The notes under the pieces: model-generated | Databases searched by the model: none | The model's input: only the letters and a program-made list of their open reading frames with translations | What the model was told of the DNA's origin: nothing | Shown here: one piece after another, positions 5,555 through 9,652 of the stretch | Numbering within the stretch: the first letter of the stretch is position 1 | How the letters are laid out: the number at the start of each line of letters is the position of its first letter | NCBI GenBank assembly: GCA_018667855.1 | Contig: JABIRL010000236.1 | Span: 1-38,037 of the forward strand | Source: Rhodospirillaceae bacterium | GTDB taxonomy: Bacteria; Pseudomonadota; Alphaproteobacteria; GCA-2731375 | Length of the DNA: 38,037 bases | Direction of reading: 5' to 3' | Program-made: the position numbers and the translations under genes

Positions 5555-6589
5555 TTAGTCGCCGCGCAGGATTTCCGCCAACCGACCCACATGTTCGGGT
5601 GGTGTTTCCGGCACGAAGCCATGGCCCAGATTGAAAACAAATGGCCCCTGTCCCAATGTTTCCAGAATGCGATGCGCCTCCACTTCCATGGCCTTACCAC
5701 CGACCACCGCCAATCTTGGATCCAAATTCCCTTGCACCGTGACCTGGCTTTGTACTTCGTCACGGGCCCATTGCAGCGGCACCGTCCAATCCAGGCTGAC
5801 ACCATTAACGCCGGCCAACTGGGCAAATGACCCGTAACCGGCACCAACACCACGGGGAAAGCCAATAATCGGCAGGCCGGGATGTTTTTGATGTAAATCC
5901 CGGACAATCCGTTGCACCGGTTCAACACACCAGCGTTGAAACGCCGTTTCCGACAAGGCACCAGCCCAAGTATCGAATAGCTGTATGACTTCGGCCCCCG
6001 CTTCGACCTGTTTGCTAAGATATTCAACGGTCGCCGTCACCAATAAATCAATAAGCTGGCCGAAACCCTCCGGATCGCCATAAGCCCATTGCTTGACAAT
6101 CCCATGGTCCCGGCTACCTCTGCCTTCGACCATATATGTCGCGACAGTCCAGGGCGCGCCGGCAAAGCCGATCAATGTGACATTATTCGGCAATTCCGCC
6201 GCCAGACGGGAAACCGTCTCGTAGACCGGCGCGACACGCTCGTGCAGGCCATCCAGACTTAGGCTCGACAGATCAGCCACGGTCCGTACCGGCTCCAATA
6301 TGGGTCCTTCGCCTTCCCGATAATCCAGCGCCTGCCCCATACCGTCCGGTATCAGTAAAATATCAGCAAATAGAATGGCGGCATCCATGCCAAACCGGCG
6401 GATCGGCTGTAAGGTGACTTCGGTCGCCAGATCCGGATTATAACATAGGTCCAAGAAACTACCGGCCTGCTGGCGGGTGGCACGATATTCGGGAAGATAA
6501 CGACCCGCTTGCCGCATGAACCAAAACGGCGGCCGGTCTAGGGTTTCGCCTTTCAGGGCCCGCACCAGCAATTTATCGTCTGTTTTCAT
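5555..6589 (-). CDS. hemE: Uroporphyrinogen III decarboxylase
   Basis: HemE removes the four acetate carboxyls of uroporphyrinogen III to give coproporphyrinogen III. Starting at MKTDDKLLVRALKGE gives 344 residues, the usual family length; an AGGGA-type ribosome binding site precedes this ATG, and the 50-residue in-frame extension upstream is AT-rich and unlike HemE. The signature RPPFWFMRQAGRYLPEYR is at about residues 19-36, followed by AAILFADILLIPDGMG, GFAGAPWTVATYMVEG, QLFDTWAGALS and the C-terminal FNLGHGFVPETPPEHVGRL. It is the first gene of the leftward hem group and faces the candidate origin. Confidence 0.97.
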   Translation of the reverse strand: MKTDDKLLVRALKGETLDRPPFWFMRQAGRYLPEYRATRQQAGSFLDLCYNPDLATEVTLQPIRRFGMDAAILFADILLIPDGMGQALDYREGEGPILEPVRTVADLSSLSLDGLHERVAPVYETVSRLAAELPNNVTLIGFAGAPWTVATYMVEGRGSRDHGIVKQWAYGDPEGFGQLIDLLVTATVEYLSKQVEAGAEVIQLFDTWAGALSETAFQRWCVEPVQRIVRDLHQKHPGLPIIGFPRGVGAGYGSFAQLAGVNGVSLDWTVPLQWARDEVQSQVTVQGNLDPRLAVVGGKAMEVEAHRILETLGQGPFVFNLGHGFVPETPPEHVGRLAEILRGD

Positions 6590-6637
6590 AAGCTGCGTTC
6601 CCTGATCCTGGCGACAATCTAATTTTCCGCCTTTTTG

Positions 6638-6655
6638 AATATAATTATTTTTAAA
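6638..6655. other. A/T-only tract, candidate DNA unwinding element
   Basis: Eighteen consecutive A/T bases sit at the hemE side of the candidate origin, in a region otherwise rich in GC. Duplex-unwinding elements of bacterial origins are usually such tracts beside the DnaA boxes. It could alternatively be part of the hemE promoter: reading leftward, TATATT at 6638-6643 is a 5/6 match to a -10 hexamer, although no good -35 accompanies it. Confidence 0.4.
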
Positions 6656-6759
6656 GGATAGATAGTGGTAGTTGATGAATCCCAGTGATAGCTGGGGATT
6701 ATGGCTTATCCCTCGATTCCTCCGGTGGTCGCCCCCCAATTGAATGTCTCGACGATATT

Positions 6760-6768
6760 TGGGGATAA
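6760..6768 (-). promoter_or_regulatory. Best DnaA-box-like 9-mer
   Basis: On the minus strand this reads TTATCCCCA, one mismatch from the E. coli consensus TTATCCACA. It is the strongest of several related 9-mers in the hemE-PDRP gap and lies near its centre. Confidence 0.45.
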
Positions 6769-6874
6769 AGATCCTTTACCGGCCCATTTCCGGTCAGTGA
6801 ATAGGGTGCATAAACTGCATAGAAAAGACACTTGAAGGTTATCAACGCCATTTCGATTCGAAATCAAACCATCA

Positions 6875-6902
6875 TTAAGAGGCTAAGAACGGTGTCCATA
6901 AT
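6875..6902 (+). promoter_or_regulatory. Candidate promoter for the PDRP gene
   Basis: TTAAGA (6875-6880, 4/6) and CATAAT (6897-6902, 5/6) are spaced by 16 bp and point rightward, about 100 bp before the start codon at 7002. The match is modest, and origin-associated AT-rich DNA produces chance promoters, so this is only a candidate. Confidence 0.3.
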
Positions 6903-7001
6903 ATAGACCTCTTGGTGCATGAAAATCCTTGTCACTCCAACAAGGGCGGCTTATCCCCGTCACTAACAGTTTTCACCAAGCCTATTGGGAACCGCGAAAA
7001 C

Positions 7002-7835
7002 ATGACGAAGTTCCATTTACACCTGGTCTCCGATGCGACTGGCGATACCTTGTTATCCCTGGCGTCCGCCGCATTAGCGCAGTTCGAGGGGGCGGAATCG
7101 GAGCGTCATATTTGGCCCATGATCCGTTCCGAAGCGGTCATGGCGCCGGTGATCGCGGCCATCGAAAAGAATCCCGGTCTGGTCATGTTCACTTTGGTGG
7201 ATCACAATCTGCGACAAATTCTGTGGGATGAATGCCGCCGCTTGCAAGCGCCTTGCGTGCCTGTCTTGGACCCGATCATTGGAGCGCTGGAGAATTTTCT
7301 GGGCGTTCAGAGCCGCGAGTTACCGGGCCGCCAGCACATCATGGATGCTGACTATTTCGAGCGGATCGACGCCATTCACTATTCACTGAGCCATGATGAC
7401 GGCCAGGCAGTGGATGATTTCGGCCGCGCCGACGTTGTCTTGGTGGGCATATCACGCACCTCGAAAACACCAACCTGCATGTATCTGGCGAACAGGGGGC
7501 TAAAAGCTGCGAATATTCCCATGGTGCCAGGCATTCCCCTGCCAGAAGAAGTCTTGAACCTAAAGGACGTGCTTGTGGTTGGCCTGACCGCATCACCGGA
7601 CAGATTGGTACAAATCCGCCGAAATCGTCTGCAATATCTTAACCAGGACGGCGATACTGACTACGTTGATATTCAAGCGGTTAAGGAAGAGGTGATCAAC
7701 GCCAGACGCCTGTTCGCTAGCAAAGGCTGGCCTAAAATCGACGTGACCCGGCGCTCTATCGAAGAAACCGCCGCCGCCATTATCAGCCTGCATACCCAGC
7801 GTTTGGAAGATCTGGCGGGCAATGGTGCAAAATAG
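7002..7835 (+). CDS. Pyruvate phosphate dikinase/PEP synthase regulatory protein (kinase/pyrophosphorylase, DUF299)
   Basis: Members of this family both phosphorylate (ADP-dependent) and dephosphorylate (Pi-dependent) a threonine of pyruvate phosphate dikinase or PEP synthetase, switching gluconeogenic flux. The start at MTKFHLHLVSDATGDTL gives 277 residues, the usual length; the in-frame extension to 6912 is not family-like. Visible motifs are HLVSDATGDTL near the N-terminus, the P-loop GISRTSKTP (149-157), and KAANIPMVPGIPLP just after it. The orthologue is the first gene on this side of the Caulobacter and Rickettsia origins. Which target enzyme is regulated cannot be decided from this sequence, so no symbol is given. 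Confidence 0.93.
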   Translation: MTKFHLHLVSDATGDTLLSLASAALAQFEGAESERHIWPMIRSEAVMAPVIAAIEKNPGLVMFTLVDHNLRQILWDECRRLQAPCVPVLDPIIGALENFLGVQSRELPGRQHIMDADYFERIDAIHYSLSHDDGQAVDDFGRADVVLVGISRTSKTPTCMYLANRGLKAANIPMVPGIPLPEEVLNLKDVLVVGLTASPDRLVQIRRNRLQYLNQDGDTDYVDIQAVKEEVINARRLFASKGWPKIDVTRRSIEETAAAIISLHTQRLEDLAGNGAK

Positions 7836-7841
7836 CTGCGT

Positions 7842-8933
7842 CTACCGATCATCCTGATCCCAATGAAAGGGAATTTCCGGTCCAACCTGGTCTGGAAGAG
7901 GTAAAACGACCGCATCCTTGATCCATAACCATGGTTTCAAAAGATCGCGATCACGATGGCGGCGCGTACCAGGTTGCGCCGCTGCTGTACGTTCCAATTT
8001 CAGGCGATAAAGCATGGCGGAATTGTCATCATGACCGTTTGTACCGGGAGATTTGGCCACGGCATAGGGACGTAAATCCTTGACCCCGGCCGCTGTCGCC
8101 GCCAGTCGAAAACGCTCCAGCGCCAAACCAGTAGGCCGGATCAGCAAGTATTGATCAATGCCCGGACTTTGATCCAGGACGGTCAACCGGCAATCCTCCT
8201 GCCCCGCCACAAAGACCGAAAAACGTTGACCTTGGGCCGATAACAGCTGCGCCGCCATGGCCGCGGCGCTTTTGCGGCCGGCGGCATTAGCCGAGAACCC
8301 GAAATATTCGAAAAACTTGCCTTCCAGGGCCTCCACATAGTCCTCGCCCCGTTCAAACAGGCGTCGTTCCACATAGCCCAGTTGCTTGCCCAGCTCCTTG
8401 ATGGCTGTGTCCGTCAGACGCTCCACCTTCACGTGCATATGGCTCAAGGCCATGCCGTCGTCATCCTCGCTCCTTTGAGCCAGTAGCGCATAATCGAGAG
8501 AAATCAGCCGTTGCAGCAATAAATCGAAGCCATTTTCTTCCGAACTATTTTCCTCCCCCGCATCAAGCCGACAATGACTGGCCTTGAAGTCCGACAAATC
8601 CTGATCCGGGGCCAGGCGCTGAATATTGCGCCACGTCACCCGATTGGACGCCCGCAGGCGAAAATGCTTGTTCAGCGGGCGGGGCAAGGTGCCGTCGATC
8701 AGGAACATCAGAGCGGTGTTCTGATCCCGATGTTCGACCCATGCCTGTCCTTGGCCGGGCAATAAATTATCCGCGCTGGCGAACGGATAAGGCTTTCCAT
8801 GGTCATTGAAGCGATGGAAACTGTCGATCAGGCAATGACGCAGCAAAAGTTTGGTCAATTGGGTCCTGGCCGCCAGGAAAGAATCGTTCTGGACGGTGCT
8901 GGGCAGGGGAATGATATTGCTTTTGTCCGACAT
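7842..8933 (-). CDS. Unrecognised protein encoded antisense between PDRP and maf
   Basis: The protein has about 363 residues if started at MSDKSNIIPLP, or 370 from an ATG at 8954; neither start has a strong ribosome binding site. No signal peptide or membrane segment is visible, and no family motif could be recognised. It is charged and soluble-looking, with an acidic stretch (EENSSEENG), a central region FERGEDYVEALEGKFFEYFG, and a Trp/Pro-rich C-terminus near KPWLWIKDAVVLPLPDQ. Its own codon-like composition and the lack of any competing gene make it a believable coding region. It breaks the otherwise rightward order of the conserved origin-flanking block and converges on PDRP with only 6 bp between the stops. 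Confidence 0.7.
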   Translation of the reverse strand: MSDKSNIIPLPSTVQNDSFLAARTQLTKLLLRHCLIDSFHRFNDHGKPYPFASADNLLPGQGQAWVEHRDQNTALMFLIDGTLPRPLNKHFRLRASNRVTWRNIQRLAPDQDLSDFKASHCRLDAGEENSSEENGFDLLLQRLISLDYALLAQRSEDDDGMALSHMHVKVERLTDTAIKELGKQLGYVERRLFERGEDYVEALEGKFFEYFGFSANAAGRKSAAAMAAQLLSAQGQRFSVFVAGQEDCRLTVLDQSPGIDQYLLIRPTGLALERFRLAATAAGVKDLRPYAVAKSPGTNGHDDNSAMLYRLKLERTAAAQPGTRRHRDRDLLKPWLWIKDAVVLPLPDQVGPEIPFHWDQDDR

Positions 8934-8973
8934 GGAACCCGACTTCATAATCATTTAATCTCAATAGGTTGAA

Positions 8974-9004
8974 TATAATAATTCAGGCCATGTATTAATA
9001 TAAT
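8974..9004 (+). promoter_or_regulatory. AT-rich divergent spacer with two TATAAT hexamers, candidate maf promoter
   Basis: Two perfect -10 hexamers, at 8974-8979 and 8999-9004, occur in the short AT-rich gap between the antisense gene and maf. No well-spaced -35 was found for either, so the promoter is suggested only by the -10 elements and by the need for rightward transcription of maf-aroE-coaE-dnaQ. Confidence 0.35.
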
Positions 9005-9040
9005 CATAAAACCACTGGAGAAAACAAGGAAAATTGATTT

Positions 9041-9652
9041 ATGATAAGAATCGCCCAAGCGCCATTGGTTTTGGCGTCCGGCAGTGCCGCGCGTCGGGAA
9101 ATGCTGCGCAACGCCGGCGTGGAATTCACTGTCATGGCCACAGATCTGGACGAGGCGCCAATCAAGGCCCGGGCCCTGAAAACCAATACCGATGTCCGCG
9201 ATTTAGCGGTGACCCTGGCCGAGGCAAAGGCCCGCGCGGCGGCGGCGGAGCAGCCGCGGGCCTGGGTTTTGGGCGCGGACCAGGTTTTAGTTTGCGATGG
9301 CGTACTGTTCGACAAAGCCAGGGATATAATCGAAGCCAAAGAGACCTTACGGTCCCTTTCGGGCCGAAAACACGAACTGTACGCGGCGGCCTGTATCGTC
9401 AGGAACGGCCACGTGGTCTGGCGTAATGTGAGCACGGCGCAAATGTAGATGCGGCCGCTTGGGGATGAATTTATTGATCGATATTTAGACCGGGCCGGCC
9501 CGACGGTGCTATGGTCGGTGGGCTGCTATCAAATCGAAGGGCTGGGCGCACAATTGTTTGAACGTACTGATGGGGACCACTTCACTATTCTGGGTATGCC
9601 CCTGCTGCCATTGCTGGGCTTTCTGCGCACCAATAGGCTGCTGGCGATATGA
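9041..9652 (+). pseudogene. maf: maf (nucleoside triphosphate pyrophosphatase) interrupted by an in-frame amber codon
   Basis: Maf-family proteins hydrolyse non-canonical or methylated NTPs to the monophosphate. Read through, the gene would encode 203 residues, the normal family length: LVLASGSAARREML at the N-terminus, VLGADQVLVCDG and FDKARDIIEAKETLRSLSGRKH in the middle, then [32 protein letters not shown] and [15 protein letters not shown]. Codon 136 (9446-9448) is TAG, in the same frame on both sides, falling just before the conserved MRP segment. The next codon is ATG, so reinitiation is conceivable. The stop overlaps aroE by ATGA, so the operon layout is otherwise intact. It may be a recent nonsense mutation or a single-base sequence error. 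The active enzyme would need both halves. Confidence 0.85.

Follow-up and report, generated by a model that had tools for sequence, protein, structure and literature searches.

A probable chromosomal replication origin between hemE and a PF03618 gene in an uncultured alphaproteobacterium

Does the 412-bp gap between the divergently oriented hemE and PF03618 genes, the latter of which we take to be the COG1806 gene, hold the chromosomal replication origin of an uncultured alphaproteobacterium? The initial annotation, made from the sequence of this DNA and naming the second gene PDRP, had described the gap and read it as oriC. The stretch that was analysed, referred to here as the window, is 38,037 nt long and is an entire contig (C274) of a 5.33-Mb draft genome in 371 contigs. 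In a contig search its nearest relatives were uncultured Rhodospirillaceae and Alphaproteobacteria MAGs. In Caulobacter crescentus the origin Cori lies between hemE and the COG1806 gene, contains an A/T-rich part and GANTC sites, and has parS near it, as described in the accessible text of several studies (PMC1914354, PMC4285127, PMC4468827, PMC3973325).

Gene order at the hemE-PF03618 locus

The divergent gap is present as claimed in the initial annotation, with hemE on the minus strand and the PF03618 gene on the plus strand (Table 1). The hemE side comprises rho, a short-chain dehydrogenase gene, a PF03653 gene (presumably hemJ), hemH and hemE, and the other side the PF03618 gene, an unassigned frame, a Maf-like gene, aroE, coaE, an exonuclease-domain (dnaQ-like) gene, secB and a Tim44-domain gene. 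The unassigned frame (370 codons, 7842-8954, minus strand, between the PF03618 and Maf-like genes) is 71.5% identical in G002, a genome of the same genus, and gave no Pfam or NCBIfam match. Rfam at gathering scores gave no match anywhere in the window.

Table 1. Positions of the flanking genes and of the elements assigned to the gap
Feature	Position	Strand	Evidence
hemE, uroporphyrinogen decarboxylase, left boundary	5555..6589	-	PF01208, E 5e-119
Intergenic region, probable oriC, 412 bp	6590..7001	.	gene order, footprint, motif counts
A/T run, 18 bases, likely unwinding element (DUE)	6638..6655	.	sole run of at least 14 in the window
DnaA-trio-like tract, TAG TGG TAG 5'->3' (3'-GAT GGT GAT-5' from the box side)	6656..6676	+	6658-6671 near-invariant
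GANTC between boxes and trio-like tract	6677..6681	.	conserved block 6676-6687
Degenerate second DnaA box TATCACTGG	6682..6690	-	positional alignment
W-type DnaA box TAATCCCCA, oriented towards the trio-like tract	6693..6701	-	conserved run 6694-6702
GANTC	6715..6719	.	conserved run 6714-6719
W-type DnaA box TTATCCCCA (8/9 match)	6760..6768	-	conserved run 6760-6768
Decayed box TTATGCACC	6805..6813	-	alignment, 9-mer scan
GANTC within 8-base invariant block 6853-6860	6855..6859	.	genus alignment
W-type DnaA box TTATCCCCG, opposite orientation	6951..6959	+	genus alignment
PF03618 kinase/pyrophosphorylase gene, right boundary	7002..7835	+	E 1.5e-91

Among the best 80 tblastn loci out of 228 relatives, hemE and the PF03618 gene are divergent at 77; the gap between the tblastn matches measures 339-715 bp at 74 of these and about 1.6 kb at three. 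At the other three loci hemE was not found in the upstream DNA covered (430, 3,327 and 10,001 bases). Four further loci of the family (L098-L101) are in opposite orientation or short; hemE adjoins the PF03618 gene in three, and the fourth covers just 1.5 kb on the hemE side (L098 is the same contig as L012). One wide gap, from Minwuia sp. (L014), contains a 365-codon frame at 8488-9585 that looks dioxygenase-like by eye only, and the gaps of L016 and L026 are similarly wide. The predicted ori of Rickettsia prowazekii has the same boundary genes and a gap of similar length (384 bp), according to the accessible text of PMC1914354.

In 12 aligned genomes, the window counted among them, stop codons interrupt any extension of the flanking genes into the gap in 9 on the PF03618 side and in 10 on the hemE side; in the window itself both frames are open near the genes. 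A longer PF03618 frame starting at TTG 6912 was rejected, because 9 of 11 aligned relatives carry in-frame stops there (the window, L002 and L011 have none).

DnaA boxes and a putative unwinding module

The ten other gaps of the genus share 56-66% identity with the window gap, and 101 of the 412 columns are invariant over all 11 gaps. Runs of at least six bases kept in at least 10 of the 11 gaps are 6658-6671 (trio-like tract), 6676-6687 (GANTC and weak box), 6694-6702 (GGGGATTAA), 6714-6719 (CGATTC), 6760-6768 (TGGGGATAA), 6853-6860 (TCGATTCG), 6950-6958 (CTTATCCCC) and 6962-6967 (ACTAAC). These near-invariant runs coincide almost exactly with the parts expected of an origin. At 6915-6933 a block (GGTGCATGAAAATCCTTGT) shows partial conservation across the genus and in L012; it could form part of the PF03618 promoter.

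Six 9-mers in the gap lie within two mismatches of TTATCCACA, with about 0.7-0.8 expected per 412 bp; over the whole window this class is hardly enriched (75 versus 63.2 in shuffles). The motif TTATCCCC occurs twice in the window gap (0.07 in shuffles). For motif counts across relatives we used 75 gaps, 11 from the genus and 64 others, leaving out three loci with gaps above 900 bp, three without hemE, and L098-L101. In the genus we counted 27 TTATCCCC sites, distributed over all 11 gaps (0.67 in shuffles), and in the other gaps 56 sites in 45 of 64 (1.34 in shuffles). TTATCCACA was found once in the 11 genus gaps and 35 times in 26 of the 64 others (0.22 in shuffles).

The genus sites recur at fixed places. 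All 11 gaps have GGGGATTA at gap position 103-106 and TTATCCCC at 361-375, and eight have GGGGATAA or GGGGATAT at 216-219 or 230, close to where the window has its decayed box, the window, L002 and L005 being the exceptions. At 171-174 ten gaps have GGGGATAA and L005 has TTATCCACA; therefore, the two box types replace each other. Scoring against a genome background had been proposed in the initial annotation, and the gap turned out to be the sole TWATCCCC cluster in 639 kb of a genus genome. All three TWATCCCC sites of the 38-kb window lie inside the gap. The 359 kb of G002 and the 280 kb of G015 (same genus, apparently one genome under two handles) contain 11 and 6 occurrences, four of them in the gap, and any other 420-bp stretch has at most one.

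The boxes belong mainly to the weak W-box (TCCCC) class of Caulobacter. TCCCCA is the consensus of the Caulobacter W-boxes, which are described as very weak DnaA sites in the accessible text of PMC4285127, and W-boxes with TCCCCA are present in all 11 genus gaps. Thus, the DnaA-box-like 9-mers of the initial annotation, the best of them matching at 8/9, held up in place and enrichment, but not in class. In contrast to Cori, the W-type boxes are here TWATCCCC(A/G) and are nearly the sole boxes. G-boxes TGATCCACA were not found in the 11 genus gaps, in which T.ATCCACA occurs once, as TTATCCACA in L005. This W-only state is not confined to the genus, since 10 of the 64 other gaps have TWATCCCC without any TCCACA, among them L012 and seven Pelagibius / Kiloniellaceae / BBD 1991-14 loci. 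A literature search pairing TTATCCCCA with 'DnaA box', with subscription papers mostly outside its reach, gave no paper. A changed specificity of DnaA was rejected as an explanation for TTATCCCC: the motif GGRDHTTV is alike in 21 DnaA proteins, Erythrobacter (GGRDHSTV) excepted.

The gap could also be an origin in which some protein other than DnaA occupies the TTATCCCC sites, leaving DnaA with just the few near-canonical 9-mers. This would fit with a DnaA domain IV that hardly differs from the one in lineages with TTATCCACA boxes, so that no specificity change is visible in DnaA. We nevertheless regard it as improbable, considering the swap of one TTATCCCC site for TTATCCACA in place in L005, the nine of 11 genus gaps that have no 9-mer within one mismatch of TTATCCACA besides TTATCCCCA, and the weak binding of DnaA to the TCCCCA W-boxes of Caulobacter that is described in the same source (PMC4285127).

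On the hemE side of the boxes lies the A/T run that was pointed out in the initial annotation and is indeed present (Table 1). Among all 30-bp stretches of the window, the one beginning at 6635 has the lowest stability; with 50-bp stretches the gap is equalled by one at 8963, and with 100-bp stretches those at 8947 and 21270 are weaker than the gap. At the place of the trio-like tract relatives have CTAC-type repeats. The second box is TATCCACAGG in many other lineages; in the genus it reads CACAGG in 9 of 11 gaps, TATCCACAGG being reduced to NNNCACAGG, CACAGA in L004 and TATCACTGG in the window. In many lineages, going from the PF03618 side, an AATCCCC-like core is followed after a few bases by TATCCACAGG and, beyond a short spacer, by CTAC-type repeats and then an A/T-rich part. 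Of the 75 gaps, 52 have a box core followed by CACAG towards hemE (opposite direction 16; 0.64 in shuffles, maximum 3), and 32 have a box core, CACAG and two CNAC-type units (opposite direction 0; 0.02 in shuffles, maximum 1). Both patterns were defined after the data had been seen, and the window, where CACAG reads CACTG, matches neither.

Order and orientation of this module in many lineages appear to be those of the basal unwinding system (BUS), which is known from oriC of Bacillus subtilis and was predicted in 1755 of 2070 origins; its rule, in the accessible text, is a DnaA box at most 16 bp from at least three NAN trios (PMC8287927). This rule is matched in 48 of 75 gaps (16.6 in shuffles, maximum 22). 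At the homologous place in the window it is broken by GAT GGT GAT, which is why we call the tract trio-like; the sole formal match that the automatic rule gives in the window (box 6893) is at another place, is unconserved and was rejected. The window shares with the BUS one or more boxes, a short spacer and, adjoining the A/T run, a trio-like tract whose strand is the expected one. It differs in that the first box is W-type and the second degenerate, a GANTC lies between boxes and tract, and the middle trio is GGT and not NAN. The imperfect palindrome at 6678-6700 listed in the initial annotation is in place, but as an element of its own it was dropped: the block of GANTC and weak box and the opposed W-type box side by side explain it.

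With the order of DnaA action modelled on the published BUS, DnaA would bind the phased weak TTATCCCC-type boxes at 6693, 6760 and 6951, together with the decayed one at 6805. From box 6693 it would be guided, across the degenerate box (6682-6690), to the trio-like tract, and would then open the A/T run on the hemE side, leading to helicase loading.

GANTC sites and cell-cycle regulators

The initial annotation was also right about three GANTC sites, at 6677, 6715 and 6855. Three sites are no enrichment over gap shuffles (1.92, sd 1.33); the whole 38-kb window has only 40, and all three gap sites are kept in the genus alignment. In the genus gaps together we counted 44 GANTC versus 21.7 (sd 4.4) in shuffles, and in the 64 other gaps 186 versus 114 (sd 9.7).

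The CtrA site TTAA-N7-TTAA is missing from the window, and among the 11 genus gaps only L011 has it, so that its absence had been stated correctly for the window and applies to 10 of 11 genus gaps. Across the 75 gaps it is not enriched over shuffles. An IHF-like site at 6862-6874, also listed in the initial annotation, has one mismatch to WATCAANNNNTTR, which we take to be the IHF consensus. The site exists, but a role for IHF was rejected: its position is not conserved in the genus, the 11 genus gaps contain no full match, and the consensus is not enriched across gaps. CtrA and IHF sites were reportedly described for the Rickettsia prowazekii ori by Brassinga in 2002; the window gap differs from that ori in having neither CtrA sites nor conserved IHF sites. 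It shares with Cori the hemE/COG1806 boundaries, an A/T-rich part, weak DnaA boxes including W-boxes (TCCCCA), GANTC and a nearby parS, and differs from it by the lack of TTAA-N7-TTAA, of a conserved IHF site and of the G-box. The lack of CtrA sites is no surprise in itself, since such sites were unseen in alphaproteobacterial oris outside the Caulobacters and possibly Rickettsia prowazekii, as stated in the accessible text of PMC4468827; some were predicted in Wolbachia (PMC1914354).

CcrM is encoded in the own genome: the protein aligns with 6pbd (Modification methylase CcrMI) along almost its full length (E 6e-153) and has a RAMA domain. Searches of the 15 order genomes detected GcrA in 14, the own genome among them. 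The CtrA model NF045991 scored above its cut-off in 6 of the 15 order genomes and in 3 of 11 in the genus, with partial matches in G006 and G014. In the own draft its best score was 176.8 bits versus a cut-off of 350; Trans_reg_C gave 15 matches there, and the proteins at nine of these were scanned, none reaching the CtrA cut-off. The absence of CtrA is provisional because the genomes (G000-G014) are drafts; a recent loss in some members of the genus is possible.

GANTC methylation by CcrM would be a plausible input to the origin, and CtrA binding would not. The accessible text of PMC3973325 reports that in minimal medium the DNA content of Caulobacter lacking ccrM resembles that of the wild type, which would argue against a methylation switch at the origin, and control by GANTC methylation is hypothetical here. 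We consider it doubtful that the origin of the genus runs on W-class boxes nearly alone, at fixed spacing and with a CcrM site in the unwinding module, and that initiation is timed by DnaA level and GANTC methylation and not by CtrA, apparently lost in several members including this one without a change of the origin. Near-exclusive W-type boxes with GANTC inside the unwinding module form a variant for which we found no description in the parts of the literature that were searchable; the kind of origin is known.

Chromosome context of the gap

The 359-kb contig of G002 has its GC-skew minimum at 148,192 (raw) or 147,084 (strand-normalised third position), i.e., within about 3 kb of the gap at about 149.8-150.2 kb, the skew being weak over the contig, as it is in the genus altogether. 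Two perfect parS lie at 161,199 and 163,207, 11-13 kb from the gap. Contig C45 of the own draft carries mnmE, mnmG, rsmG, genes for a ParA-family ATPase and a ParB-family protein, and two parS. Window and C45 together reproduce the gene order of G002, and thus we infer that here, too, the gap has parS at a distance of about 12 kb. The own draft, with its 371 contigs, provides only the 38-kb profile of the window, which is lowest at 8-9 kb.

Across the 3.14-Mb contig of an Erythrobacter we sampled 38 stretches, each of 20 kb. The normalised skew has a negative sign in all 3 stretches before 60 kb, a positive one in 19 of the 20 between 60 kb and 1.7 Mb, and a negative one in all 15 beyond. This contig has its hemE/PF03618 gap near 69 kb, parS at 74.7 and 76.8 kb and dnaA at 508 kb; in the sample the skew clearly switches at the hemE/PF03618 locus and not at dnaA. 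The raw skew of Magnetospirillum G018 (not above 0 in 7 of 7 stretches below 270 kb, above 0 in 10 of 13 from 270 kb; locus at 271 kb, four parS at 274-284 kb) is weakly consistent with an origin at the locus. In G019 the skew is below zero in 9 of the 10 stretches that reach to 380 kb and above zero in 8 of the 10 after them; with the locus at 334 kb and dnaA at 470 kb, this switch does not distinguish between the two. Pelagibius has a broad basin with a minimum at 174.6 kb (raw) or 147 kb (normalised) and the locus at about 237 kb. In all four, parS is near the locus. On G015:C2 cumulative skew rises over a long distance and levels off near dnaA (140.8 kb). A skew minimum near dnaA, named in the initial annotation as evidence to the contrary, was seen neither there nor as a switch in Erythrobacter.

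The origin reading rests on gene order, phylogenetic footprint, parS linkage and skew, none of which depends on the motif list. Within what sequence can show, an origin of replication is strongly supported, and the gap at 6590-7001 is very probably the oriC of this uncultured alphaproteobacterium. The oriC proposal of the initial annotation is thus upheld by the gene order at 77 of 80 loci, the footprint, parS and skew minimum in G002 and the skew switch in Erythrobacter. For the best explanation taken whole, a chromosomal origin with the path of DnaA into the A/T run outlined above, we estimate a probability of roughly 0.92.

The divergence of the flanking genes would also suit a mere promoter region that hemE and the PF03618 gene share and in which DnaA and CcrM regulate transcription; promoters are known targets of DnaA, CcrM and GcrA (accessible text of PMC2877005), and the gap contains three promoter-like sites versus 0.6 (sd 0.7) in shuffles. 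A promoter role could coexist with an origin. As the only function of the gap it is very improbable, leaving unexplained the skew switch in Erythrobacter, the parS linkage, the order of boxes and trios beside an A/T-rich part in many lineages and the unique box cluster. Least credible is an origin at dnaA or another locus with the hemE cluster as an ancestral relic: origins beside dnaA are common in other bacteria and the G019 switch is not separated from dnaA, yet G015:C2 has no skew minimum at dnaA, dnaA of Erythrobacter is not at the switch, no TWATCCCC site lies within the initial 12 kb of the contig that carries the own dnaA, and the gap sites are conserved and not decaying.

An origin between hemE and the PF03618 gene would be located, for this uncultured alphaproteobacterial lineage, to within some 400 bp, with its kept bases displayed. 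The 75 gaps, many of them with the same order of box, box and trio, make the BUS model testable in alphaproteobacteria. Within the genus, two contrasts are at hand: TTATCCCC versus TTATCCACA at one position (L005), and species with CtrA versus species in which none was found, the origin being the same.

A minor observation concerns G013, a genome of the same family with 102 DnaA-domain matches on many contigs. Nearly all of them are weak, of equal score and about 253 codons long, and they are probably copies of a single helper ATPase, encoded by an IS21-type element that is present in very high copy number.
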